Source: Sulfodiicoccus acidiphilus
GTDB lineage: Archaea; Thermoproteota; Thermoprotei_A; Sulfolobales; Sulfolobaceae
Reading direction: 5' to 3'
NCBI RefSeq assembly: GCF_003967175.1
Contig: NZ_AP018553.1
Span: forward strand, 2,033,982-2,097,981
DNA: 64,000 bases
Numbering within the stretch: position 1 is the stretch's first letter; every line of letters begins with the position of its first letter. The notes beneath the pieces were generated by a model, which was not told where the DNA came from, did no database searches, and was given only the letters and a program-made list of their open reading frames with translations. A program made the translations under genes and the position numbers. This document shows, one piece after another, positions 23,379-50,104 of the stretch.

Positions 23379-23424
23379 AGGAACAGGCTAACGGGGTTTT
23401 AAGATTGGTATGAGATAGCCAAGG

Positions 23425-23725
23425 GAACTACCACGCCTTTATGGACTGGGCGTCCTCGCGGTGAGTCCCGCTCCTCGGAGGAACCTCGATCTCCTTACGT
23501 AGCGGAGGTTCCGTGGAACCTTTCTGTGAACAGCGTGGAAGGGAGGTTGCGGAGGGTTTCCTATCTACAGGCTTGAGTTCCCCAGTCCCGAGGGTGCGAC
23601 CCAGCTCTTTCAGTTAGGGTCTAAGAATTATTTGTTTTCATTATCATAAAAACATTTCTATAAGGGAGGTTGTCCACCCTCACGGAAGGGGACTTCCGCC
23701 CCTTCAGCCGACGTTAAGTTAAACC
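23425..23725 (-). mobile_element. tnpB-tail element, best-preserved copy
   Basis: Reading the minus strand: a hairpin end (23663-23725, arms in GGGGCGGAAGTCCCC), an AT-rich spacer, then a 60-codon frame ELGRTLGTGELKPVDRKPSA ... CSQKGSTEPPLRKEIEVPP ... THREDAQSIKAW with its stop at 23428. This resembles the low-complexity tail after the zinc finger of archaeal TnpB. The right end GGACGCC...GGCGTGGTAGTT follows. The whole unit aligns along its length with 37498-37800. It has no start codon and no catalytic region, so it is a non-autonomous derivative. Confidence 0.65.
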
Positions 23726-31233: not shown

Positions 31234-32397
31234 GTGGATGAGCTTTCCCCTCAGTTCCTTCTAGACCCCTACCCGTGGCTTGCTCACATGAGGCGCAACG
31301 ACCCAGTTCACTTCGACGGCGAGGCGTGGAACGTGTTCCTCTACGAGGACGTTAGAAACGTTTTGAATCAGTACCAACTCTTCTCGTCTGGGTTCAGTGG
31401 CTACGATCAGACCACGGCCGAGGAGTTGAGGACGAATAGGGCCAATGAGCTATTCGACATTCCGACTAAATATACCATGCTCACTGCAGATCCTCCTCTT
31501 CACGACGAGCTGAGGTCCGTTACGTCCCCTTTCTTTTCGCCTTCGCACCTGGCGACTATTGAGAACTTCGTAAGGGAGACGGCTAGGGCTCTAATCAGAA
31601 ACTCGGGGAACAGGTTCGACTTAATAAGAGACTTCGCGGTCCCATTGCCTATCGAAGTGATCTCCAAGTTGCTCGGCCTTAGCAGACAAGATTCCTCTAA
31701 AGTTAAGAGATGGTCAGACGCCATAGCATTGAACTTAGGAAAAGATAGTGGAATGCCCACTGACTGGTCGGCTCTAACTGAGATGCTTCAGTTCGTAAAC
31801 GAGACTCTGGACTCGCACAAGGAAGGAGAAGACCTGATAAGCAAAATAAGGAGAGCAGAGTTCAGGGGTAAGAGGCTATCGAGGATAGAGCAACTGGCCT
31901 ACACTGTCCTACTCCTCATCGCGGGGAACGAGACTACTACAAACCTCATAGGGAATGCAGCCGTTACCCTGACCAGGTTCCACCGATGGGACTCGGTCTC
32001 AGGAGGGGAGTCGACCACCTGGGCCGTGGAGGAAGTACTTCGGTTCGCCCCTCCAGTGAGGAGGACCTTCAGGGTGGCCAGAAGGGATGTAGAGTTGAGG
32101 GGAAGAAGAATAAGGGAGGGTGAGGGGATAAGGGTGTGGATCGCCTCAGCCAACAGGGACGAGTCCGTGTTCGAGGAGCCTGATTCGTTCAATCCCTCGA
32201 GGAAACCAAACCCACACCTTAGCTTCGGTTCAGGAATTCACCTCTGCCTAGGGGCGCCCCTAGCTAGACTAGAGGCACGGATCGCCCTAGAGGAACTCAG
32301 GAACTCCGGAGTAAGGGTGAAGATAGAGGGGCTAGAACCATTGCCTAACGTCATTCTCAACGGCTTCCGCTCTATACCGGCGGAGGTAGGGACGTGA
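31234..32397 (+). CDS. Cytochrome P450, CYP119-like
   Basis: 387 residues, very similar in sequence memory to the thermophilic CYP119 of Sulfolobus. The haem-cysteine loop is LSFGSGIHLCLGAPLARLEA (about residues 330-349), the I-helix AGNETTTN, the K-helix EEVLRF (ExxR) and RVWIASANRDE. The longest frame starts at 31177, but a TATA-like ATTTAT (31205-31210) fits a leaderless GTG at 31234, and CYP119 itself starts near the following DPYPWLAHMR. It oxidises an unknown hydrophobic substrate. Redox partners are not encoded nearby. The stop overlaps the next gene (GTGA), so the two are coupled. Confidence 0.93.
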   Translation: MDELSPQFLLDPYPWLAHMRRNDPVHFDGEAWNVFLYEDVRNVLNQYQLFSSGFSGYDQTTAEELRTNRANELFDIPTKYTMLTADPPLHDELRSVTSPFFSPSHLATIENFVRETARALIRNSGNRFDLIRDFAVPLPIEVISKLLGLSRQDSSKVKRWSDAIALNLGKDSGMPTDWSALTEMLQFVNETLDSHKEGEDLISKIRRAEFRGKRLSRIEQLAYTVLLLIAGNETTTNLIGNAAVTLTRFHRWDSVSGGESTTWAVEEVLRFAPPVRRTFRVARRDVELRGRRIREGEGIRVWIASANRDESVFEEPDSFNPSRKPNPHLSFGSGIHLCLGAPLARLEARIALEELRNSGVRVKIEGLEPLPNVILNGFRSIPAEVGT

Positions 32398-33290
32398 AGA
32401 GCGTTATACCGTGGGGAGTGAACGTACCGTTTGTGTACCTGGCCTTCGCCCTGTGGGGGGCCGGGGCGGTGGAGCTCCTGAGGTATCCCTCTGTTCACCC
32501 CTACCTAATGATGTTGGGGGCCTACTCCCTCTACTTCGGCATGATCCAGAGGCTGTTCTTTCCAGCAAGGAAGTACTTTGTAACACAGCTGATGTCGATG
32601 GCGGTGGGAATACCCCTCCATTGGGGTCAGGTTACTGGATCAGCTGCGCTCCTCGCTACTGAGGTCTGGTCTCTAGTGGACGTTAAGAGGTACGGATCCA
32701 AGTACCCCGTGAACTACCTTGTACTGAGCTCAGTCCCTATGACGCTTCTAGCTTGGACTATATACGGAGGGAACTACTGGCTTCTTGTTCCACCTCTGCT
32801 TTCCTACCTCTTAGGAGTAAACGAAGGTGTCTTCTCTTCGACCTTGAGGATCAGGCCGAGGATGGGAATCCAACAACTACCTATCATGGCCTCGGTCATG
32901 GCCAGCTGGTTCTTTCCCGTGGCTGTAGTGCCGGCGGTGTTGATTTACGTTGCCTCGTTCGGCTGGAAGGGAGCGAGACCTCGTCTTTCAGCTCTGATCA
33001 CGCTGGTGGTTATGGTAGTAGTCCCCACATCATCGGTATGGTTGGGTTATCAGGTTCACGCTTTCACGTTGGGAATTATGAGTCCCCTCTTCTCATCGTG
33101 CGTGACCTTCTCGCTCTCGTCTGAGAACTACGACTTGGAGTGGCCTGCTCCGCTTCTCTTCGCAGCTTCATACTTCACTAGGCAACTTAGCTTACTTTTG
33201 TCCGGGTTGCCTTGGATCACTGGCATGATATTTCTCCTTTTCCTTATAAGTAGAAAACTCGGTCTGAAGTCGCTCTTGCTGGACTTTTAA
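32394..33290 (+). CDS. Polytopic membrane protein coupled to the P450
   Basis: 298 residues with about eight to nine hydrophobic segments and few charged loops. Family not recognised. GTG start at 32394 overlaps the P450 stop by 4 bp, indicating translation from the same message and a possible shared pathway. A histidine/Trp-bearing stretch GIPLHWGQVTGSAALL lies near the third helix. It could supply a lipid or isoprenoid substrate, but nothing in the sequence shows this. The end overlaps the antisense MscS remnant. Confidence 0.75.
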   Translation: MKSVIPWGVNVPFVYLAFALWGAGAVELLRYPSVHPYLMMLGAYSLYFGMIQRLFFPARKYFVTQLMSMAVGIPLHWGQVTGSAALLATEVWSLVDVKRYGSKYPVNYLVLSSVPMTLLAWTIYGGNYWLLVPPLLSYLLGVNEGVFSSTLRIRPRMGIQQLPIMASVMASWFFPVAVVPAVLIYVASFGWKGARPRLSALITLVVMVVVPTSSVWLGYQVHAFTLGIMSPLFSSCVTFSLSSENYDLEWPAPLLFAASYFTRQLSLLLSGLPWITGMIFLLFLISRKLGLKSLLLDF

Positions 33291-33605
33291 GGTCCTCTGT
33301 TCCAGTGGTGCTGACTTCAAGTACACCTTGTTTCCAAGTATGATGTTATAGGGAATCATTACCTTGGTTACATCTGTCTTCACTAGAAAGGCGAATAATG
33401 TGGACACGGCCTTTACTCTACCGTTATTACCTAGCGTGACGACTTCGTCACCTATCTTGGGGGGCTCACTTGTAAGAAGGAAGGGACCAGCCACTACTCC
33501 CAACACCTGTTGAATCGCGAAGGCCACCACTACTCTCAACGAACTAACCTAGCGCAACATACGCTACACCGTCGGGTATTGCACTGGCAACTACTGCGGA
33601 CTAGA
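33192..33605 (-). pseudogene. MscS-family mechanosensitive channel remnant
   Basis: The minus frame reading from about 33540 shows AFAIQQVLGVVAGPFLLTSE, PPKIGDEVVTLG, NNGRVKAVSTL and KVMIPYNIILGNKV. These correspond to the pore helix and beta domain of MscS channels (ALQ..L....G.., PF..GD.I..G, G.V..I, .IPN..L....V). The upstream part (ASAIPDGVAYVALG) is in frame but separated by stops. The last 40 codons run antisense to the membrane-protein gene. It is therefore a truncated, decayed channel gene. Confidence 0.6.
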
Positions 33606-33769
33606 GCTCCAATTCCTAATTATCTTGAAGACGTTGGGCATGGCCGCCGCGGTGGGGATCGCGTCTCATCACTACGTTACAGTAAAAGGCGGAGACACCT
33701 CCGTTTCCATCAGAGTCGGATCGTATTTCAGTATGGGAACTCACCCTATGGGATCATGCTGACCTCCTC

Positions 33770-34109
33770 CCAGCACTGGAAGGGTTCCCCTCCTTTGGCT
33801 CGTCTTTCCCACCCTCTGTTCGGGTTCACGTCCCTGGTGGGCAGTAGAGTGGATCGGGGAGGGACCCCACTCGAAGGTGGGACTTTCCTCCGTGAAGTCC
33901 ATTGAGGGAGAACGCGATCGCCCCTCCCTCGTTTTCGTCGAACCCCCGATCGATCTGGGGGGAGGGGCGTCGTTGGCGCCAACGAGGGAAATTTAGACGG
34001 AGTCCTGTCGGCAATGACATACTCGTTCACCTAAAGTCAATTGTACGGCTTCTCACCCCACGCTGAAAGGCGAGGCTTTCCGCCCCCTCGACCCCGCTCT
34101 TTGTAAACG
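33770..34109 (-). mobile_element. tnpB-tail element containing an 82-bp unique insert
   Basis: The right end GACCTCCTCCC (33770-33780) and tail landmarks GTTCGGGTTCACGTCC, GTGGGCAGTAGAGTGGATC and GATCTGGGGGGAGGGGCGTC align with the copy at 52453-52801. The hairpin end GGCGAGGCTTTCCGCCCCCT (34069-34088) also matches. Between tail and hairpin, 33987-34068 is not found in the 52453 copy and recurs inverted at 37384-37465. The surviving minus-strand frame is only a tail. Confidence 0.6.
33987..34068. repeat. 82-bp inverted repeat, copy A
   Basis: Identical over 82 bp, read in reverse complement, to 37384-37465. It begins GGAAATTTAGACGGAGTCCT and ends CACCCCACGCTGAAA. It lies inside the tnpB-tail element at 33770-34109. 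The two copies bracket the CaiB-type and M32 genes. Confidence 0.9.
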
Positions 34110-34226
34110 TAATGTTGGACATCTGTGAAGTCCATTGATTGATGAGGCAAATTCCTGAAAACCGAGTAAATCCCCCGAAATAGGACACTAGAAACACATT
34201 TATTGAACTGACTGCGTTTGTTTACC

Positions 34227-35444
34227 ATGACCTACGACCTCCTTAAGGGAGTGAAAGTGGTAGATCTCAGTAGGGCCATGGCTGGGCCCTACTGCACCAT
34301 GATGTTAGCTGACGCTGGGGCAGATGTAATAAAGGTCGAACCCCCCGTGGGAGACGAGACGAGACTCTGGGGGCCACCTTTCCAAAACGGGGAGAGCACC
34401 TACTTCATGAGCGTCAACAGGAACAAGAGGAGCATCGTGATCGACCTTAAGAAGGAACAGGGGAAGGAGGTCCTCAGGAGGCTCTTGGAGAACGCTGACG
34501 TGTTAGTGGAGAATTTCAGGCCAGGGGTAATGGAGAAAATGGGGTTCGGATACGAACAGGTCTCAAAGCTTAATCCCAAGATAATATACTGTTCCATCTC
34601 GGGCTTCGGCCAATGGGGTCCGTATAAGGACAGGCCGGGTTACGACCTCATAGCATACGCTGTGAGTGGGATGATGAGCATAACTGGAGAGGAGGGGAGA
34701 CCTCCAGTTAAGGCCGGAGTGCCAGTCTCAGACATAGGAGCGGGCATGTTCGGGGCCTTCGCTATAGTCTCTGCTCTATTCAGGAGAGTATCGACAGGTA
34801 AGGGGGAATACATAGACGTGAGCCTACTTGAGGGGCAGATCGCTTGGCTCACTCACCAGGCCGGAGCCTACTTCGCCACAGGTCAGAACCCAAAGAAGAT
34901 GGGCTCGGCCCACTCTTCCATCGCCCCCTATCAAGCCTTCAAGGCCAAGGACGATTACTTCGTGCTAGCGGTGGGAAACGACGAGCAGTGGGCCAGGTTC
35001 TGTAAGGCAGTAGGGGCGGAACACCTCCTGAATGACCCCCGATTCAGGAGCAATCCTGACAGGGTCAGGAACAGGGACGCGCTAATTCAGGAGTTAGAAA
35101 AAGTCTTCTCCACAGATTCTTCGACAGAGTGGGTTAGAAGGATATCCGAGGCGGGAATACCCTGCAGCAGGATCTACAAGCTCAGCGACGTCTTCACTGA
35201 CCCTCACGTCTTAGCAAGGGAAACTGTACAGGAAATTGATCACCCTAGAGCCGGGAAAGTCAAACAGATCTCGCCTCCCTACAAGTTGAAGGGCTCGAAG
35301 TTCAGGATCGCCCTGCCACCGCCTGTTCTAGGCCAACATACTGAGGAGGTACTTAGGGAATTGGGATACTCGGAGGAACAAGTTAAAAACATGGTAAAGG
35401 AGGGATCTGTGTTGATTACAAGTACTTCTCTTGCAGGTACCTGA
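34227..35444 (+). CDS. CaiB/BaiF (family III) CoA-transferase
   Basis: 405 residues. N-terminal LKGVKVVDLSRAMAGPYCTM and ADVIKVEPPVGDETR are typical of the family. RNKRSIVIDLKKEQGKEVL and ENFRPGVMEKMGFGYE follow, and the catalytic Asp lies in YIDVSLLEGQIAWL (about residue 195). The enzyme moves CoA between carboxylic acids; partner acids are unknown. The longest frame starts at TTG 34218. A TATA box (34193-34202) places the leaderless start at ATG 34227. It lies between the two 82-bp inverted repeats and overlaps the convergent M32 gene by 29 bp. Confidence 0.9.
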   Translation: MTYDLLKGVKVVDLSRAMAGPYCTMMLADAGADVIKVEPPVGDETRLWGPPFQNGESTYFMSVNRNKRSIVIDLKKEQGKEVLRRLLENADVLVENFRPGVMEKMGFGYEQVSKLNPKIIYCSISGFGQWGPYKDRPGYDLIAYAVSGMMSITGEEGRPPVKAGVPVSDIGAGMFGAFAIVSALFRRVSTGKGEYIDVSLLEGQIAWLTHQAGAYFATGQNPKKMGSAHSSIAPYQAFKAKDDYFVLAVGNDEQWARFCKAVGAEHLLNDPRFRSNPDRVRNRDALIQELEKVFSTDSSTEWVRRISEAGIPCSRIYKLSDVFTDPHVLARETVQEIDHPRAGKVKQISPPYKLKGSKFRIALPPPVLGQHTEEVLRELGYSEEQVKNMVKEGSVLITSTSLAGT

Positions 35445-36894
35445 CAAGGTATTCCGGTTCGTATTCTACACCTAACGCCTTCCTTAGGAGTTCCTTGGGT
35501 GAGTATATCGAACCCCACCTGTGTATTTTCTCCTTTAAGAACTCCTTAAGCGGGCCGAAGTTACCCTCCATCACCCTCTCGTAGAGGTGGGGAACTTTGT
35601 ACCCCAATGTTGCTGCAATCACGTTCCCCAAGGTGTAAGTGGGGAAGTAGCCGAAGGAACCTCCAGACCAGTGAACGTCTTGCAGGGCTCCTTCCGCGTC
35701 ATTCCTCGGCCTTAGTCCCAAGTACTTCTCCGTTAGCTCCTCCCACGCAGCAGGTATCTCCTGAGCGTCCATATCCCCCGCTATCAGTTTCTTCTCTATT
35801 TCGTACCTTATCGCGGTATGGAAATTATAAGTTATTTCGTCGGCGTCAACCCTTATCAGGCTCGGCCTCACCAAGTTGAAGTACTTATATATCTCCTCTC
35901 TGTCGTAACCCGATAGGAACTGAAGCTTCGAGCGAAGATATGGGTATATCAAGGACGTGAATTCCTGGCTCCTCCCTACAACGTTTTCCCAGAACCTGGA
36001 CTGGGACTCGTGAATCGAGTAGGACGCCGCCCCACCAACTGGTGTGAACTCCAGCTCGCTGTTAAGCTGTAGTTCGTAGATGGCATGTCCACACTCGTGT
36101 ATGACAGAGAACATAGTTGACCTGAAGTCCCTCCCCTCGTACCTCGTGGTAATCCTCACGTCCCCTGTGGAGAGTCCAACAGTGAAAGGGTGTGCAGAGA
36201 CGTCTATCCTGAACTTCTCCTTGGGCATTCCTAGGAGGTTTATCAGATGTTCGTTCACTTCCCTCATCGAGCCCTCTTCGTACTTGACTTCCTCTAGAGG
36301 GTGAGAGGCTGGGAATTTTTCCTCGGCCCTAACTTTATCGAGAACTTGCTTCGAGGCTGGAAGTAGTTCCGAGTAGATCCTGTCCACATCTTTAACCGTG
36401 AGGCCCTCCTCGTAAATGTCGAGGAGAGCGTCGTATGGATGTTTCGAGTATCCCAGTTTCTCCGCTATAGTTTTCTCAAGGTCTACTATCCTCTCCAAGT
36501 AGGGTCTGAACTTGGAGAAGTCGGCTTCCTTCCTCGCTTCCCTCCACACTACAGAAGCCTTAGAGGTCACCGCACTTAACTCCTTCAAGACTTCCTGGGG
36601 TATGGCCCTGTAGAACTTCAATTCCCTACCTACAACCCTAACTATTCCTCTCTCAACGTCTGTCAGATCCTTCCTCTCTACCGCCCGATCTAGGAGAGAT
36701 CCTAGTGAGAGGATCGCCTCCTGCTCCATGGCTGAGAGCTCTGCAGCGACTGCTCCCCTGGCCTCCGCACCCATAGGTGGCATGTACGTCTCAAGGTCCC
36801 ACCCCATAAGCGATTGGGTGTACCTTATGGCCTTGACTCTCTTGAACGAAGTGTTAATCCGCTCGATTACGGGATCCATATTCGTTCTATTCAT
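35416..36894 (-). CDS. M32-family metallocarboxypeptidase (Taq/Pfu type)
   Basis: 492 residues. The zinc motif is HECGHAIYE (HExxH, about residues 263-271), with the third ligand Glu and GSxxSIHESQSRFWEN downstream. DAEGALQDVHWSGGSFGYFPTY and YTLG near the C-terminus are typical of M32. It removes C-terminal residues from peptides, except proline in most relatives. ATG at 36894 begins MNRTNMDPVIERI; a second ATG at 36879 is an alternative that fits a TATA-like GTTTAATC (36902-36909) better. It lies between the 82-bp inverted repeats. Confidence 0.92.
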   Translation of the reverse strand: MNRTNMDPVIERINTSFKRVKAIRYTQSLMGWDLETYMPPMGAEARGAVAAELSAMEQEAILSLGSLLDRAVERKDLTDVERGIVRVVGRELKFYRAIPQEVLKELSAVTSKASVVWREARKEADFSKFRPYLERIVDLEKTIAEKLGYSKHPYDALLDIYEEGLTVKDVDRIYSELLPASKQVLDKVRAEEKFPASHPLEEVKYEEGSMREVNEHLINLLGMPKEKFRIDVSAHPFTVGLSTGDVRITTRYEGRDFRSTMFSVIHECGHAIYELQLNSELEFTPVGGAASYSIHESQSRFWENVVGRSQEFTSLIYPYLRSKLQFLSGYDREEIYKYFNLVRPSLIRVDADEITYNFHTAIRYEIEKKLIAGDMDAQEIPAAWEELTEKYLGLRPRNDAEGALQDVHWSGGSFGYFPTYTLGNVIAATLGYKVPHLYERVMEGNFGPLKEFLKEKIHRWGSIYSPKELLRKALGVEYEPEYLVRYLQEKYL

Positions 36895-37383
36895 CTCCGA
36901 TTAAACGATTTTCTAACCCTTAGACAGGCCCTATTGAGACTTCTGAGTCAGTGGGCTTAGATCTCACGTTCGTCATTGGTGGAGGTGGTCGCGTTTTTAA
37001 CCTTAGCACTGTAGCTAAACTTTTGACTTGAGAGGAAAATCCAAAGCTCAGAGCTAACAACAATACTTTAACACTGATATTTTAAGTCGCTCTCTACGTG
37101 ATAGTGTCGGCATGAATGGACAACCTCCTTTTCACAAGATAGAGAAAGCGTTTCCTTCAGCTAACACAGCCTCCTATGCGTCTTACATTGATGTGATTTT
37201 GGCCAGACCTTCGGTTACCTCGTTGTGTCTTCAAGCAAGTGTTAAGCTAAGATAATTTGGGTACCCTAGCTTTAGACCCACTCACACACTAGGTCCTCGT
37301 TGACCCCACACGACTCACCGTCCCATCTGGGCAGGACTTCGAGATACGGATCAATTTATGGCGAACTGGGGTGGAGCCTCGTA
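36895..37383. other. Gene-poor stretch upstream of M32 gene
   Basis: Apart from the small frame at 37112-37255 I see no gene here. It carries the M32 promoter at its left end. On the right it runs into the inverted-repeat copy at 37384. Confidence 0.5.
37112..37255 (+). CDS. Possible small leaderless gene, 47 residues
   Basis: ATG at 37112 begins MNGQPPFHKIEKAFPSANTA and ends CLQASVKLR. A TATA-like GATATTTTAA (37075-37084) sits 30 bp upstream, the distance used by real genes in this window. No family recognised and no long hydrophobic run. It may be a short gene or the 5' end of a truncated one. Confidence 0.3.
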   Translation: MNGQPPFHKIEKAFPSANTASYASYIDVILARPSVTSLCLQASVKLR

Positions 37384-37465
37384 TTTCAGCGTGGGGTGAG
37401 AAGCCGTACAATTGACTTTAGGTGAACGAGTATGTCATTGCCGACAGGACTCCGTCTAAATTTCC
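37384..37465. repeat. 82-bp inverted repeat, copy B
   Basis: Exact reverse complement of 33987-34068 by eye over 82 bp. It lies 33 bp before the right end of the tnpB-tail element at 37498-37800. Confidence 0.9.
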
Positions 37466-37497
37466 ATAATCTGTTAGAGCTGCCTCGATTTCTCGTG

Positions 37498-37800
37498 AAC
37501 CACCTCCCCCTCACGGACGTGGCATCCTCGCGGTGAGGATTTCCTGCTTCCCGGAGGGACCTAGATCCCCTTCCGTAGCGGAGGTTCAGTGGAACCTTTC
37601 TGTGAACAGTACGGAAGGGGGATCACGGAGGGTTTCCTCTCCACGGGCGTGAGTTCCCCCAGTCCAGAGGGTGCGACCCAGCTCTCACAGTAGAGGTCGT
37701 AGAAATAGTATTTTGACAACCGTAAAGAGGTTTACATAAGGGGGCTGTCCGTCCTCACGGAAGGGGACTTCCGTCCCCTCAACCCCCGTTAAGTTAAATT
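37498..37800 (-). mobile_element. tnpB-tail element, full copy
   Basis: Aligns with 23425-23725 along the whole unit. Shared parts are the right end (CCTCCCCCTCACGGACGTGG), a tail holding GCGGAGGTTCAGTGGAACCT and CTTTCTGTGAACAG, GAGGGTGCGACCCAGCTCT, an AT-rich spacer, and the hairpin end ending GTTAAGTTAAA at 37788-37798. In one frame it reads SWVAPSGLGELTPVERKPSV, a TnpB-like tail. Frames are broken and no catalytic part is present. Confidence 0.65.
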
Positions 37801-37890: not shown

Positions 37891-38688
37891 CTAAGATAAC
37901 GAGTTCCAGAGCGCCGTCATCAAGTCCTTCCTTCCCGATTTCTGCAACGCCGCCGACAAAACTCCCAATAACATGAATGTTCCGGAAGAGCCCCCCATCG
38001 AGGCTACCCGGAGGGAAGAGGAGTAAAGGTCGCCTCTGCCTTTAAGGCACTCCCTTAGAGCTGCTACCTCTATGAGGTAGTCTCTATCCGTTATTACTTC
38101 AGAAAGTATGCTCCTACTCAACTGGGTTGTATTGCTCAGGTCTAGGTAGGCCTGGAGTGAACTTCCCCAACCGGTTAAGTAGCCCGCTAGAAAGTCGTCG
38201 AACGATGGAGTGCTACCTCCCCCAGCCCCCACGTAACGTTGTGCTAGCTCCAACGTCCTCCCCGGCTCATCGTCTTTTGAGATAATGAGATGTTTCAGGA
38301 GCTTGACCACGTGCAGGTCTAGTTCTCCGGAGAGCGTGGAGCCAAGCACTGACGCAATCTTAACCGCTTCGCCGAGGTTTACCACGTCAGAACTACTCTC
38401 ACCAGGCCTCCTATAGGCCCTAGCTTCCCCCTCCATAGTAAGAACCAGGTAGTTTCCCTCGAAGGACGCCCTCACTCCTACCTTCTTTGAGCTCGGGGAA
38501 AGCGCCACGGAGTACGGTGTTATCAATGGCTGATCTGAGGCGGGCGCCAAGTGGCCCCTGAAGAGAGCGTAAACGTTATCTTGCGTTTCTACCGCGATCT
38601 CTAAAGAAACGGAGCCTCGTCTCCTGAGTTCGTTCAGGAGGTCCTCGCCCACGGCCGAGGCCTCAAGAGATTCCATATTCCTCAGCAT
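37891..38688 (-). CDS. allH: DUF2877 protein (AllH/YlbF-like), oxamate-carbamoyltransferase-type subunit
   Basis: 265 residues. A central LAQRYVGAGGGSTPSFDDFL, with GxGxGxTPSxDDxL-type spacing, is the hallmark of DUF2877. It continues AGYLTGWG, with SSSLRVASMGGSSGTFMLLG further on. In E. coli the equivalent gene lies with fdrA and a DUF1116 gene and together they are reported to form an oxamate carbamoyltransferase. Here it is last in the same order, overlapping the DUF1116 gene by 26 bp. It probably forms part of a complex that splits an N-carbamoyl compound with phosphate. The substrate in this organism is unknown. Confidence 0.88.
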   Translation of the reverse strand: MLRNMESLEASAVGEDLLNELRRRGSVSLEIAVETQDNVYALFRGHLAPASDQPLITPYSVALSPSSKKVGVRASFEGNYLVLTMEGEARAYRRPGESSSDVVNLGEAVKIASVLGSTLSGELDLHVVKLLKHLIISKDDEPGRTLELAQRYVGAGGGSTPSFDDFLAGYLTGWGSSLQAYLDLSNTTQLSRSILSEVITDRDYLIEVAALRECLKGRGDLYSSSLRVASMGGSSGTFMLLGVLSAALQKSGRKDLMTALWNSLS

Positions 38689-39931
38689 ATCTCCTCAGGG
38701 CCCTCTTGAACATGCCCATGTCCATTGACACTACGCCCGCTCCTATCTGCCCAACGCCGGCCTGCCTGTGAGCTATCCCAGTGTTTATAGTGGGCTCGAT
38801 TCCCGTCTTCACAACTTTCCTGAGGTCTATCCCCGTCGGGGTTCCCTGGAAGGAGAGGTAAGGTATCTTGAAATACCTGTGCTTAGTGTGAGTTATCTGG
38901 TACATACGCTCCGTGTTCTCGACCGCGAACTGAACGTTTCCTCCCACCCAAGAGACAATAGAGGGGGCAGCAGCCATGGCAAACCCACCGAAGCCCGCGG
39001 TCTCAGTGATGGCGCTATCCCCTATGTCCGGGTTTGCGTCCTCAGGTTTGAAGCCAGGGAAGAGAACTCCCTGAGGCACTTTGGCGGGGGCAGTGAACCA
39101 ATTGTTACCGAGTCCACTTATCCATATCCCCGCCTCCGTGCCGTTCCTACTCATCACCGTAACAACCGTACTGTACTTCACGTTGTGGGCCGCCAATGTC
39201 ATGACCTTGGCAGCCCCCATGGCGAAGTTGAGGAAAGTGAACGTATTACCCTTCACGAAATCCAGTACCCTGAGTAAAACGTCCTTAGCTAGGTCCGACA
39301 TCACAAGGTACCTCGCTAACTCGTTCAAGAAGAGTGAAGTACCTGCAGCGTGTCTGTTGTGACCCTCATCACCCATGTTAAGTGCCTGGGTTAATATGAA
39401 CTTCACGTCAAGTCCCCCCTTTTCCTTCACCGCCTGATCTACGGCAGCCTTAAGGCTCTCCGCGAACTCTGACCCCATCCACTTCAACCTCTTCAGCACA
39501 CTCTCATCGTATGCACCATACCTTAGCACCTTCCCGATGCCCTCGTTGAGATTGGAGTAGGCCCTATTCCCATACTTTGGATCACTTATGACTAGCAAGG
39601 GCATTGAAGGTGAGACGGCACCAGCCATGGGTGCAACAACCCCCACCTCATGTGTTGGAACCAGTCTCACCTCGCCCGTCTGAAGCTTCCTCTCTGCCCC
39701 CTCTGGACTGTCTGCCCACCCCTCTAGAAGCGTCGCACCTATTAATGCTCCCCTCAGAGGGCCTGAGGCCTTCTCCCAAGAGACCGGAGGACCAGCGTGA
39801 AGGAGCGTGGGTTGACCGAATACGTTAAGGACTTTCCTCGCCTCCACTACATCGATCCAAATCGCTGAGGCCTCCATCATACGTTCTACCGCGGCCTCGT
39901 TGGCCTTCGAGATCTCCTCCCTGAGCGACAT
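38663..39931 (-). CDS. allG: DUF1116 protein (AllG/YlbE-like)
   Basis: 422 residues. Conserved DUF1116 stretches include MGDEGHNRHAAGTSLFLNEL, MSRNGTEAGIWISGLGNNWF, TETAGFGGFAMAAAPSIVSW and the C-terminal HRQAGVGQIGAGVVSMDM. It is the central, probably catalytic, component of the FdrA/AllFGH-type carbamoyltransferase. ATG at 39931 has a strong Shine-Dalgarno (GGAGGT) 9 bases upstream, located inside the preceding 56-residue gene. Overlaps the DUF2877 gene by 26 bp. No signal peptide, so cytoplasmic. Confidence 0.9.
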   Translation of the reverse strand: MSLREEISKANEAAVERMMEASAIWIDVVEARKVLNVFGQPTLLHAGPPVSWEKASGPLRGALIGATLLEGWADSPEGAERKLQTGEVRLVPTHEVGVVAPMAGAVSPSMPLLVISDPKYGNRAYSNLNEGIGKVLRYGAYDESVLKRLKWMGSEFAESLKAAVDQAVKEKGGLDVKFILTQALNMGDEGHNRHAAGTSLFLNELARYLVMSDLAKDVLLRVLDFVKGNTFTFLNFAMGAAKVMTLAAHNVKYSTVVTVMSRNGTEAGIWISGLGNNWFTAPAKVPQGVLFPGFKPEDANPDIGDSAITETAGFGGFAMAAAPSIVSWVGGNVQFAVENTERMYQITHTKHRYFKIPYLSFQGTPTGIDLRKVVKTGIEPTINTGIAHRQAGVGQIGAGVVSMDMGMFKRALRRYAEEYGIS

Positions 39932-40102
39932 TCACAATACCTCCTTAAGTATGTCCTCTATGTCCTTTTCAAGCTCCACCGGTGGGCGCCAATTCACTTG
40001 AAGTGTAGTCACCCCCTGACGCTTCAGTTCCTCGTGGAAGTGCGAGCTACCCACGTTTATCACAGTTATCCTTTGGGAAGCGAGAGAGTCGGCTCCCTTC
40101 AC
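39932..40102 (-). CDS. 56-residue FdrA-associated small protein
   Basis: A GTG start at 40102 overlaps the fdrA stop (GTGA) and its own stop lies next to the DUF1116 ATG. The product contains ITVINVGSSHFHEELKRQGV followed by LQVNWRPPVELEKDIEDIL. The pattern INVG...F...LR.QGV....V.WRPP is the same as small fdrA-linked proteins and N-terminal extensions of DUF1116 proteins in bacteria, as I recall. It is likely a fourth subunit or a nucleotide/CoA-type accessory of the complex. Confidence 0.8.
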   Translation of the reverse strand: MKGADSLASQRITVINVGSSHFHEELKRQGVTTLQVNWRPPVELEKDIEDILKEVL

Positions 40103-41679
40103 AATAGACCACCTATAGATACAGTTTCATCGTACACAAGTTTAAGTTTGTTTCCGCCTCGCGTTACTGCCCCCGCTAGCGTCAAGAAAGCCAACGCGTT
40201 GGTCGGGAAGAGCTTAACTCCCAACGACTTGAGCTTATCCTCTTGCTCTGAGAGTCCTTGTGGATCTCCCGATGTACCACACACGTGTCCTAGGAGCTCT
40301 ACTCTCCTTCCACTCCTCTCCACCTCTGAAAGGAAGTAGTTTATTGCGTTTGAGTGAGCACCAGCGGGGTCGTGGTGAGCTCCGTATCCGAGGACGAAGT
40401 CCATGTAAACTGCCCCCACCGACTCGTCCTTAGCGAGCTCTCTGAGAACGGTGGTCCTTATTGTAGGGTCGATCATGGGGTGCGGTCTTCCCCGGGTGTA
40501 TTCTTCCTCTCCTAGATCTACTACGGCATTGCCAGACCTCAAGTCCACAGAGAAACTTACTCCGGCCTCCGAGAGCACTACAGACCCCTCGTTGGCGAAG
40601 GTACCACCTGTGAGCAATGCCACGAACCTGCCGTTGACCCTCAGCGACTGGACCATCTCTGAAGTCCTCTGGAAGTCCCAGTGATACTTGGAAAGAAAGG
40701 CCTTTAGAGGTTCTTCCCCGCCGCCCAAACTGGCCACCGAAGCCACTGCTTGGTGAAGGGTTTTGGTGAAGGTGAGCCTGCCATCTCTTCCCTTTTTGGC
40801 TCCTGGCCCTAGAAATGTAATTACGCACGGCTTCTTGATCCGTGATTTGACGAACTCCTCCACCTTTGCCTTAGTCGTTGGATTTGGAATCTTGCTTACC
40901 AAAGCGATCACGTTAGTGCTGGGATCCTCCTCCAGGAACTCCAGGGCCTTCATCATCATCAATCCTCCAACTACGTCCTTCACATCGTTTCCTCCGACTC
41001 CGAGGCCGTAGGAAATCCCAAGTCCACTCTCAGACAACATGGAACTCAATTCCTGGAGTCCCGTACCTGACGCAGCCGCCACTCCAACTCCTCCAATCCT
41101 AACCTTATTTGCAAACCCCAGACCCACTCCCCTAATTAAAACAGTTCCAGCTCCAGGACCAAAGACGAAACAGTCGTTCTTAACTGCCGATTGTTTCAGT
41201 GTGATCTCATCTTCTATTGGTACGTTGTCACTGAAGACGTGCACGTTTATACCCTCCTCAACTAGAGGCAAGGCTACATCCTTAACGTACTTCCCAGGAA
41301 TGGAGATCAAAACCACGGTAGGTTCTGGGATTGCCGCTAGAGCCGCTTCAACTGTGGAGTACTGGGACTCCTCAGCTCCACCCTCCATTAGGGACTTGGC
41401 AGTGGCTATAGCCGCTTCCACGGCCTCCTGACTCGAGCCTCCTACAACTATAACTAAGTCGTCTGGGCCAGCCCCAGCTAGCTCCTCGGACCACAGTCCC
41501 AGCGATTTGGCCAAATCCTTGTTGGTATCTGTGGCCATTCCTACCAAAGCTTCACCCACTCCAGGAAGTCTCCTTACTTTCTCTGTGATCCTGAGCAGGA
41601 AGACCGAGTCCCTGAACGTACCCTTCATTACGACGGTTCTTCTGTGCTCTGGCCTCGTGATCCTTAAGCCCTCTACCAC
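40099..41679 (-). CDS. fdrA: FdrA/AllF family protein, acyl-CoA-synthetase-like subunit
   Basis: 526 residues in two Rossmann-like halves similar to succinyl-CoA synthetase alpha. An N-terminal FRDSVFLLRITEKVRRLPGV leads in, with FGPGAGTVLIRGVGLGFANK and RIGGVGVAAASGTGLQEL after it. The C-terminal half has VVDLGEEEYTRGRPHPMIDP, DFVLGYGAHHDPAGA and VCGTSGDPQGLSEQE. In E. coli this gene is part of the reported oxamate carbamoyltransferase set. A TATA-like TTAAATAC (41700-41707) fits a leaderless GTG at 41679. It heads the operon fdrA, small protein, DUF1116, DUF2877 and is divergent from the NCS1 permease gene. Confidence 0.92.
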   Translation of the reverse strand: MVEGLRITRPEHRRTVVMKGTFRDSVFLLRITEKVRRLPGVGEALVGMATDTNKDLAKSLGLWSEELAGAGPDDLVIVVGGSSQEAVEAAIATAKSLMEGGAEESQYSTVEAALAAIPEPTVVLISIPGKYVKDVALPLVEEGINVHVFSDNVPIEDEITLKQSAVKNDCFVFGPGAGTVLIRGVGLGFANKVRIGGVGVAAASGTGLQELSSMLSESGLGISYGLGVGGNDVKDVVGGLMMMKALEFLEEDPSTNVIALVSKIPNPTTKAKVEEFVKSRIKKPCVITFLGPGAKKGRDGRLTFTKTLHQAVASVASLGGGEEPLKAFLSKYHWDFQRTSEMVQSLRVNGRFVALLTGGTFANEGSVVLSEAGVSFSVDLRSGNAVVDLGEEEYTRGRPHPMIDPTIRTTVLRELAKDESVGAVYMDFVLGYGAHHDPAGAHSNAINYFLSEVERSGRRVELLGHVCGTSGDPQGLSEQEDKLKSLGVKLFPTNALAFLTLAGAVTRGGNKLKLVYDETVSIGGLL

Positions 41680-41773
41680 TTGTTCATTTTTTAAGACCCG
41701 TATTTAAGCCTCACCCTATGCTTACCATTATGAGGAAATGAACTTAAATTCGAACTCCGTTTAGAATAAAGGG

Positions 41774-43429
41774 ATGACTGAGGAAAGAGAAACCTCAGAA
41801 AGAGTTGAAGCAACCAAGTTCTACCCGGACAAGGGTTACTTGGAGCTCGAAAGGAAGTTCCCAGAAGAGAAGTACCTGTGGAACGAGGACGTCCACCCAA
41901 CTCCAGTCAAACACAGAACGTGGGGGTCGTGGACTTTCTTCGCCATATGGTTCGGAATGGCCATGGAGGTGGAGTCCTGGGCCCTCGTGTCTATAGGTTA
42001 CTCTTTCGGTCTCAATTGGTTCTGGAGCCTCGTGTCTGTAGCTGCCGGGAACCTCATCGTCCTCGTTCCTATGATAATACAAAGCCACGGAGGAGCGAGG
42101 TATGGGATACCCGAGACGCCATTAACTAGAAGTAGATGGGGAATATACGGAAACTGGATCCCTTCTCTTCTTAGAGGCATAATAGGTGCAGGTTGGTGGG
42201 GAATAGACACCTGGATAATATCGGAGGCCATAGGGGCTATGTACCTAGTACTCACACATGGTACAGGATTGCTCTTGAAGCTAGTGTCCCAGAATCCAGC
42301 TGACTTACCTTTTCTGATAGCTACAATAAACCCGGATTTGTTCTGGGGAGTGTTTCTCCTAACAATAGCAGCCAGGCTCGCCATACTCTATGTCTCCCCT
42401 CCCAGGACTGGACAGAAAGTTCTCAAAGTGGTTAGCTGGACAGTTCCCTTCGTGAGCTTCGCGGGTTTCTTCATACTATTCTTCAACGTCATGTCCATGG
42501 CCAGCTGGCACTGGCAGCCCATACTCGATATTCCCACTACAGTCTCTGGATCAGCCTTCTGGTACGCCCTGATAGGGCTGATAAACGCCAATGTGGCTTT
42601 CTGGGCCACCATGGCTCTCTCAATGCCTGACTACACCAGGTTCGCGAAGACTCAGTTCGCCCAAACTGCCGGACAGTTGCCCCTACCACTTCTCATGACC
42701 GCCATAGGGGCGTTCGGCCTCGTGACAACTGGGGCCTCCTACGTCGTCTTCAAGACTCCCATATGGGATCCAATAGTATTGTCTGCGCTCTCGATATCCA
42801 ACCCGGCTTTAGCGATTACTGCCCTCTTCCTTCTCCTGCTGGGAGTGGTTGTAGTCAATATATACGCGGACACGGTTGGACCTGCGTACGACTTCAGCAA
42901 CATATACCCGAAGAAGTTGAGCTGGTTTGCTGGAGTTGTGATAGTCGTGCTAGTCGCTGGGGCACTCCAATCGTGGACATACTACTTCAATGCCTTCAGT
43001 TACGTAGAGAACTGGTTGCTAACCTACGGTGCCCTATTGGGAGGGGTGGAGGGAATAATAGTGTTCGACTACGCTCTCCTCAGAAGGTTCAAGTTCGAGC
43101 TCTTCGATATTTTCTACTCCAAGGGCAGGTTCAGGTACTTCAAAGGAGTTAACCCAGCTGCAGTGATAGCTTTCGTGATCTCCATGATTCTGGTGTTCCC
43201 ACCCAACTCTTACCTCCCCACTTCCATATCTTCCCTCTACCCCGGCCAGAGCTGGGTATTTCAAGACTCTTGGATATCCGCCATCCTTCTGTCTGGATTG
43301 ATATATACGGCATTAATGGTGTTCTGGGTTATACCGAGGTACCAACCTTGGCTACGGGGAAGTCCCCTGAAGGGGTATACATCGAAGGAGACCGAGGAGA
43401 TCTTCAGGGGAAAGAGGGAGAAAAACTGA
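41774..43429 (+). CDS. NCS1-family nucleobase/allantoin-type permease (first copy)
   Basis: 551 residues, about 12 helices. NCS1 marks are NEDVHPTPVKHRTWGSWTFF before helix 1, PMIIQSHGGARYGIPETPLT, GAGWWGIDTW, the NANVAFWATMALSMPDYTRF core and GALLGGVEGIIVFDYALLRR. These carriers import cytosine, uracil, purines, hydantoins or allantoin with Na+ or H+. It is closely paralogous to 48473-50104. ATG at 41774 with TATA-like TTAAATTC (41743-41750). It diverges from fdrA and overlaps the end of the deaminase-like gene by 26 bp. Confidence 0.92.
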   Translation: MTEERETSERVEATKFYPDKGYLELERKFPEEKYLWNEDVHPTPVKHRTWGSWTFFAIWFGMAMEVESWALVSIGYSFGLNWFWSLVSVAAGNLIVLVPMIIQSHGGARYGIPETPLTRSRWGIYGNWIPSLLRGIIGAGWWGIDTWIISEAIGAMYLVLTHGTGLLLKLVSQNPADLPFLIATINPDLFWGVFLLTIAARLAILYVSPPRTGQKVLKVVSWTVPFVSFAGFFILFFNVMSMASWHWQPILDIPTTVSGSAFWYALIGLINANVAFWATMALSMPDYTRFAKTQFAQTAGQLPLPLLMTAIGAFGLVTTGASYVVFKTPIWDPIVLSALSISNPALAITALFLLLLGVVVVNIYADTVGPAYDFSNIYPKKLSWFAGVVIVVLVAGALQSWTYYFNAFSYVENWLLTYGALLGGVEGIIVFDYALLRRFKFELFDIFYSKGRFRYFKGVNPAAVIAFVISMILVFPPNSYLPTSISSLYPGQSWVFQDSWISAILLSGLIYTALMVFWVIPRYQPWLRGSPLKGYTSKETEEIFRGKREKN

Positions 43430-48472: not shown

Positions 48473-50104
48473 CTAGGAGCGTCGTTCCCCGAATATCCTT
48501 TCTATTTCATCGTCCGTATATCCCTTGAGGAGCCCTCCCCGTAGCCAAGGTTGGTACTTCGGGATGACCCAGAATTTCATCAGGATGATATAGAGCACTC
48601 CAGTGATGAGGAACGCCGAGATCCACGAGTTTGCGTAAAGCATCTCAGTCACAGGATTCACAACCCAACCCCAGTACGAGAGATAGGTGACTACCGTACC
48701 CACAGCGAAGCTTATGAAAGCTGCAGGGTTCACACCCCGCCAATATCTGAACCTGCCGTTCTTTAGGAAGACGTCAGTGGGCTCGAACTTGAAGCGCCTG
48801 ATCACCGCGTAGTCGAACACGATCACTCCCTCAACCGCCCCCAGAAGAGCACCGTAAGCCAAGAGCCAGTTGTAAATATAGGAATAGGCCCCTCCGGAGT
48901 AGAAGGCCCACGCCCCGAGGGCCATGCTTATGAGGACTCCTATCAATATTCCCCTGAACCAAGTCAGGTACTTGGAGTAGGTGTTGGCTATGTCGTACCC
49001 GGGTGCCACACTGTTGGCGAATACGTTAACCACGAAGGTCGCTAACATGAAGACGAAGAGGACGAAGTATGCTGCCGCCTTGGGGAGGATCGCGGCCGCC
49101 AGTATGACTGGGTCAGCTATTCCAGCGCCATGTCCCAGGCCCAGCACCATTGTAGCGCCGGTGGCCATTATCCCCAGTGCACCTATGGCCGCCATCATTA
49201 ACGGCATCGGGATTTGTCCTGTAGTCTGAGCGAACTGGGACTTCGCGAACCTGGTGAAGTCGGGCATTGATAGGGCCATGGTGGCCCAGTAAGCCACGTT
49301 GGCATTGAGGAAACCGAAGACTGCCAGCCAGAATCCGAAGCCCACTGCCTTGTCAGGTATCTGAGTTATGGGGGCGAAGTTCCAGTGAGCTGAGTTCATG
49401 GTGTAAGTGAAGAGGAGCACGAACCCAGCGAGAACTATGGGTGCGGCCGCACGTGCTAACCACTTGAGCGCGGGCTGTCCCTTGAAGGGAGGGGACACGT
49501 AGAACAGCAGAAGCTGAATCAAGACGACCGCTATGAACGTTGGCCAGAATATTTGGGGATAAGCGACAGATAGGCTGTACGTGTTGCCGGCCAGTAGTTT
49601 GGGTATCTGGTTCGTACTCACCAGGTACATGGCCACTGCTGCTTCTGTGATTATGTAAGATTCTATTCCCCACCAACCCATGGATATTATTGCTCTTATC
49701 CACGAGGGGAACTGAGCACCATAAACTCCCCACCTAGTCCTCGTAAGCTGGGGTTCTGACATGCCGTACTTAGCTCCTCCGTGGGACTGAATCAACATAG
49801 GCACGAGTACGATCAGGTTACCTAAGAACATCAGTAGTATGGACTGCCACCAGTTGAGCCCGAAGTCTAGTCCGACTCCGCTGAGAGTCCACGTTGGAAC
49901 TATTGTTACCATGCCGAACCATATGGCCAAGTAGGTCCAAGACCCCCACTTCCTCATTGTAATCGGTGTTGGGTGGAAGTCCTTGTTCCAGAGGTAAGGC
50001 TCCTCTGGATACTCCTTTGTTAGTTCAACCTGACCTCTCTTCCTATCGTAGACTGTCACGGCCACGCGGTCTACTACTTCCGCCTGCCTTTCTTTTTCCG
50101 TCAT
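48473..50104 (-). CDS. NCS1-family permease (second copy)
   Basis: 543 residues, clearly paralogous to the gene at 41774: YLWNKDFHPTPITMRKWGSW, PMLIQSHGGAKYGMSEPQLT, SMGWWGIESY, NANVAYWATMALSMPDFTRF, AVEGVIVFDYAVIRRFKFEP and the tail VIPKYQPWLRG. A TATA box AAATATAAAT (50135-50144) lies upstream of the ATG at 50104, allowing a leader of some 5-10 nt. It sits 100 bp upstream of the hydroxylase large-subunit gene on the same strand, suggesting that the transported compound is the hydroxylase substrate or a precursor. Confidence 0.93.
   Translation of the reverse strand: MTEKERQAEVVDRVAVTVYDRKRGQVELTKEYPEEPYLWNKDFHPTPITMRKWGSWTYLAIWFGMVTIVPTWTLSGVGLDFGLNWWQSILLMFLGNLIVLVPMLIQSHGGAKYGMSEPQLTRTRWGVYGAQFPSWIRAIISMGWWGIESYIITEAAVAMYLVSTNQIPKLLAGNTYSLSVAYPQIFWPTFIAVVLIQLLLFYVSPPFKGQPALKWLARAAAPIVLAGFVLLFTYTMNSAHWNFAPITQIPDKAVGFGFWLAVFGFLNANVAYWATMALSMPDFTRFAKSQFAQTTGQIPMPLMMAAIGALGIMATGATMVLGLGHGAGIADPVILAAAILPKAAAYFVLFVFMLATFVVNVFANSVAPGYDIANTYSKYLTWFRGILIGVLISMALGAWAFYSGGAYSYIYNWLLAYGALLGAVEGVIVFDYAVIRRFKFEPTDVFLKNGRFRYWRGVNPAAFISFAVGTVVTYLSYWGWVVNPVTEMLYANSWISAFLITGVLYIILMKFWVIPKYQPWLRGGLLKGYTDDEIERIFGERRS

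Follow-up and report, generated by a model that had tools for sequence, protein, structure and literature searches.

SMN1 of S. islandicus is a MITE derived from IS200/IS605 and mobilised by ISC1733 (PMC3718332), and Sulfolobales elements of this type are short, non-coding and multi-copy. Inversions are recognised by what lies at their junctions: staggered-break inversions, described in Drosophila (PMC3355041, PMC5080602), carry identical inverted segments that flank the inverted block and adjoin both breakpoints, inversions by recombination between transposable elements carry inverted element copies at both junctions, and phase-variable elements have an adjacent site-specific recombinase gene. 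In the stretch of Sulfodiicoccus acidiphilus DNA analysed here (64,000 nucleotides, hereafter the window), two arms of a perfect inverted repeat bracket a CaiB-type CoA-transferase gene (hereafter CaiB) and an M32 carboxypeptidase gene (M32; Table 1). The repeat is a genuine footprint of a MITE-associated rearrangement at a real, lineage-specific inversion.

Table 1. Features of the inverted block and its surroundings, in window coordinates.
Feature	Coordinates	Strand	Remarks
P450 gene	31177-32397	+	left anchor gene
298-aa membrane protein gene	32394-33290	+	left anchor gene
MscS-type channel pseudogene, C-terminal part (residues 113-247)	33294-33696	-	outside arm A
MITE1 copy holding arm A	33759-34108	-	apparently IS200/IS605 (tnpB)-derived, ~350 bp
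Arm A, perfect inverted repeat	33987-34068	+	interior of MITE; 91 nt at 98% to 34077
CaiB-type (family III) CoA-transferase gene	34218-35444	+	within inverted block; E 2e-145
M32 carboxypeptidase (Peptidase_M32) gene	35416-36894	-	within inverted block; E 2e-145
MscS pseudogene, N-terminal part (residues 52-111)	37074-37233	+	on the inner side of arm B
Arm B, inverted repeat	37384-37465 (91 nt from 37375)	-	stand-alone MITE-interior piece
MITE2 copy	37495-37798	-	second IS200/605-like family; starts 29 bp outside arm B
AllH and AllG genes, oxamate carbamoyltransferase subunits	37891-39931	-	right-hand neighbours

The two arms are identical at 82 of 82 positions in inverted orientation, and an earlier note on this DNA had correctly placed both arms and named both enclosed genes. 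A repeat search of the window returned a longer inverted match (33987-34077 against 37375-37465; 89/91, 98% complementary), with 3297 nt separating the inner ends of the 91-nt arms. The repeat is far beyond chance, its two full matches in a genome-wide search having E values of 5e-42 and 2e-39. Further copies, for which the earlier note had proposed a search, did not emerge: the whole 2,353,189-base single-contig genome holds no third copy of the full 82 bp, and the remaining matches are 14-31-nt pieces of its two edges, drawn from a dispersed repeat family, one edge (16 nt) and the other (~25-31 nt) each having many occurrences. Arm A is correspondingly composite, with MITE sequence at 33987-34002 and 34056-34068 enclosing a core of ~53 bp (34003-34055), which occurs elsewhere only in arm B and takes the place of the usual short MITE spacer, to which it is unrelated. 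Among 30 family genomes the core yielded chance-level pieces only; as for a virus or phage origin, no exact match was found in viral contigs and none in phage records. Arm B lacks a recognisable MITE right end on its outer side and has on its inner side at most a degraded left end, the inner edge resembling a MITE left end with p 0.003-0.01 (against loci L079 and L078). Homology of the arm flanks beyond 91 bp failed to reach significance on the outer side (p 0.11), as did that of the arm B flank to the left end of the arm A element (hereafter MITE A) beyond the inner 9 nt (p 0.24). A non-coding RNA was also considered, but the window contains no Rfam match at gathering score, with a chance mir-3689 match alone in the locus, and no tRNA was found there. 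The repeat probably serves no purpose in itself.

MITE A belongs to a family (MITE1) of ~350 bp with ~45 dispersed copies in the genome, and is intact at both ends, with its left end at 34108 (TTTAC/AAAG) and its right end at 33759 (...GGAGGTCA). The left ends of such elements are usually preceded by (T)TTAC, as seen in occupied sites alone. The 3′ end of the family matches sequence upstream of the tnpB start in loci L047 and L053, and the 5′ end matches sequence just past the tnpB 3′ ends in L060, L070 and others; a TnpB zinc-finger model has 49 matches in the genome. No tnpB-like open reading frame crosses 33759-34108, and MITE1 has neither a transposase nor a tnpB frame of its own. Because both ends match sequences flanking tnpB genes of the same genome, the element around arm A appears to be a non-autonomous IS200/IS605-type MITE. 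The surrounding elements had been described as heavily diverged, which does not hold for arm A: positions 33760-34002 are 99% identical to another genomic copy (1785052-1785294, 243 bp). The contrast formerly drawn between an identical repeat and diverged elements in fact compares different families, because the neighbour of arm B is MITE2, a family of ~300 bp with ~41 genome copies, another of which lies at 23421-23723 in the window. A candidate target duplication at the MITE2 copy (ATTTCTC on both sides) is absent from the aligned flanks of other copies and was taken as chance. Many contigs of the congener described below end in repeats related to MITE2. Short scraps matching MITE1 or the arm B edge occur at 33721-33737, 34121-34137 and 37294-37323, which suggests that each spacer was pieced together from remnants of old MITEs or from products of template switching.

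MITE A is itself a chimera. Compared with its nearest MITE, it differs at 3/243 positions to one side of the repeat but at 10/52 to the other (Fisher p 2.5e-6), whereas close members of its nearest subfamily differ at 1/52 positions in the same 52-bp part, such that 34055-34108 belongs to a different subfamily from the rest of the element. MITE A therefore combines two subfamilies by recombination, changing from one to the other within the repeat, as would be expected if the junction arose by recombination there, and this favours such an origin.

Gene order was compared with that of the single congener available, G001, whose draft genome is in 190 contigs. Its contig C133 reads CaiB, M32, a 667-bp spacer, the membrane protein gene and P450, and is unbroken through M32, the spacer and the membrane protein gene; the CaiB gene lies partly on C133 and partly on C171. 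The window reads P450, membrane protein, CaiB, M32, with the P450/membrane protein side faced by CaiB here and by M32 in G001; in other words, CaiB-M32 is turned round with respect to the congener. Beyond the block, CaiB is followed in G001 by an OB-fold/rml cluster and M32 in the window by AllH, while AllH and AllG in G001 adjoin an Hjc-like gene; since these neighbours differ, more than one rearrangement separates the two genomes. More distant family genomes each contain M32 with none of the window's neighbour genes nearby, and so do not polarise the flip. The CaiB and M32 genes overlap convergently by 29 bp (35416-35444), and the same 29-bp overlap occurs in G001 (L148, 778-806). To the right of the block, 37891-43429 encodes AllH, AllG, an FdrA-like protein and a cytosine/purine/allantoin permease, a purine/allantoin degradation-type set in a thermoacidophilic archaeon; AllG is 85% identical in G001, while searches of six other family genomes did not recover it. 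One further pair of inverted stretches, 41834-42735 and 49155-50035 (72-73% similar), has one arm in the permease gene (41774-43429) and probably marks a permease paralogue, diverged and encoded on the opposite strand.

An independent record of the inversion is provided by an MscS-type channel pseudogene, the two parts of which were mapped by frameshift-tolerant profile alignment. The C-terminal part retains a single 115-aa open frame (33192-33539, minus strand) and is frameshifted above that; the N-terminal part carries two frameshifts and two stops, and scores 61.5 against a null of 23.7 ± 3.6 (maximum 33.75; 150 random window segments). The halves lie on opposite strands and join at residue 111/113, with no overlap and a gap of one residue. 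MscS is ~235-278 aa in relatives, with intact orthologues in several family genomes (G001 on contig C155, G010, G002, G003 and others) and no other tblastn match in the window's genome; the spacer between M32 and the membrane protein gene in G001 holds no MscS remains (scores 28.5 and 27.2, at null level). When the block is flipped back, MscS becomes one gene and the order membrane protein, MscS, M32, CaiB is restored, which is the order of G001 plus MscS. Because un-flipping rejoins MscS within the gene order of the congener (two independent lines), the inversion is placed in the Sulfodiicoccus acidiphilus lineage. The many frameshifts and stops in the halves indicate that MscS is long dead. 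Between the MscS sequence and MITE A lie 62 bp, and between it and arm B ~140 bp. The distances from the breakpoints (33696/33697 and 37233/37234) to the arms (33987 and 37375) are 290 and 141 bp.

We propose that a 3.5-kb block, comprising M32, CaiB and the front part of MscS, was inverted in this lineage, each junction region containing one of the repeat arms. The inversion would have arisen when two MITE-derived copies in opposite orientation underwent ectopic homologous recombination, the 82 identical bases would be the exchange or conversion tract, and copy B may have lost its remaining element sequence later, as more MITEs inserted; RadA-type recombination at the repeat could still flip the block occasionally. 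Recombination between MITE copies is favoured as the cause because MITE A is a recombinant with its switch inside the repeat, and the resemblance of the inner edge of arm B to a MITE left end is what a reciprocal product should show. Several observations pull the other way: the MscS breakpoints map at a distance from the arms; arm B has no right end, and its putative left end is strongly degraded whereas the 82 bp are perfect; the unique 53-bp core would have been needed in both partners or spread by conversion; and MITE A has the look of an intact element that inserted on its own. An inversion by recombination of MITE copies, with the 82 bp as exchange or conversion tract, is considered here as likely, not proven; the explanation as a whole is narrowly probable, and for recombination between MITE copies as the cause the balance is close to level, tilting slightly against.

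The 141-290 bp between the MscS breakpoints and the arms leave room for the repeat to be a by-product of the inversion or a later copy. In the first case the breaks would have fallen cleanly at MscS codon 112 and, between two direct copies of the repeat, in the CaiB-AllH spacer; a local duplication that had been direct would have become inverted, and the repeat would not be the cause of the flip. This would suit the breakpoints defined by MscS, which leave MITE A wholly inside the block, as well as the completeness of MITE A at both ends; un-flipping sets the two copies in direct orientation at a distance of ~430 bp, and direct duplications that are short and local occur commonly. However, the subfamily chimera in MITE A would go unexplained, and a recent duplication, hence a recent flip, would be needed despite the many MscS frameshifts, so that MscS must have been dead beforehand; we consider this sequence of events unlikely, if not without weight. 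Alternatively, the inversion could be old, and the second spacer could have acquired 82-91 bp of MITE A afterwards, either through gene conversion that overwrote a MITE remnant there or through template switching in the course of repair. In favour of this are the perfect identity of the arms next to a pseudogene full of frameshifts, an arm B consisting of MITE interior alone, and the mosaic make-up of both spacers from short MITE pieces (among them the scraps noted above). Such a copy would nevertheless have landed by coincidence in the exact other junction spacer of the same inversion, which makes this course of events quite improbable.

For the identity of the arms, the earlier note had offered duplication, conversion or an active inversion; it had recognised neither the MITE derivation of the repeat nor the flip that gene order reveals. 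Duplication or conversion together with inversion accords with the congener's gene order and the split MscS, but not so a switch by which recombination at the 82-bp repeat flips the block in living cells. Perfect inverted repeats of such length could recombine, and the same block is present in both orientations across two species; yet no recombinase or invertase was found among the flanking genes tested (P450, the MscS fragment, AllH, AllG and others), MscS is long dead with its breakpoints off the arms, the split pseudogene and intact MITE A fit one fixed order, and a single orientation was assembled in a complete circular genome from PacBio subreads, which average ~6.8 kb (1,538,043,255 bp / 225,345; PMC6647314). 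Beyond the existence of the repeat nothing supports an active switch, which we regard as very improbable; equally far-fetched is the broader idea that perfect MITE-borne repeats keep CaiB-M32 reversible as a recombinase-free gene-neighbourhood switch in Sulfolobales. No point was found in favour of an assembly artefact, against which stand both the single-contig long-read genome and the flanks, where MscS and the congener's order show the flip independently; its probability is negligible.

An origin of the inversion by recombination between MITE copies can finally be set against the known systems. The case is a small crenarchaeal inversion, well preserved and reconstructable, with the broken gene readable on both sides; it shows tnpB-derived MITEs accompanying rearrangement in Sulfolobales, and the public PacBio reads offer a ready test of whether an 82-bp repeat suffices for ongoing flipping. 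Like the IS200/IS605-derived MITEs of Sulfolobales, the elements here are short, non-coding and multi-copy, MITE1 has ends in common with tnpB (OrfB) elements of the same genome, and left ends usually follow TTAC/TTTAC; unlike them, the two families measure ~350 and ~300 bp and arm A holds an unrelated 53-bp core, the likeness to SMN1 being drawn at the level of element type. The identical inverted segments flanking the block recall the staggered-break inversions of Drosophila, but what is duplicated here is MITE sequence, set apart from the MscS breakpoints, and a site-specific recombinase gene of the kind that adjoins phase-variable elements is missing from the flanking genes tested. There is agreement, too, with inversions by recombination between transposable elements: the block is inverted relative to a relative, inverted element copies occupy both junctions and the element at one of them is chimeric, although the second junction holds only a fragment, of which the left end fits a reciprocal recombinant weakly and the right end is missing, and the gene breakpoints lie away from the arms. 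This inversion scar is a fresh instance of an already known kind of event.
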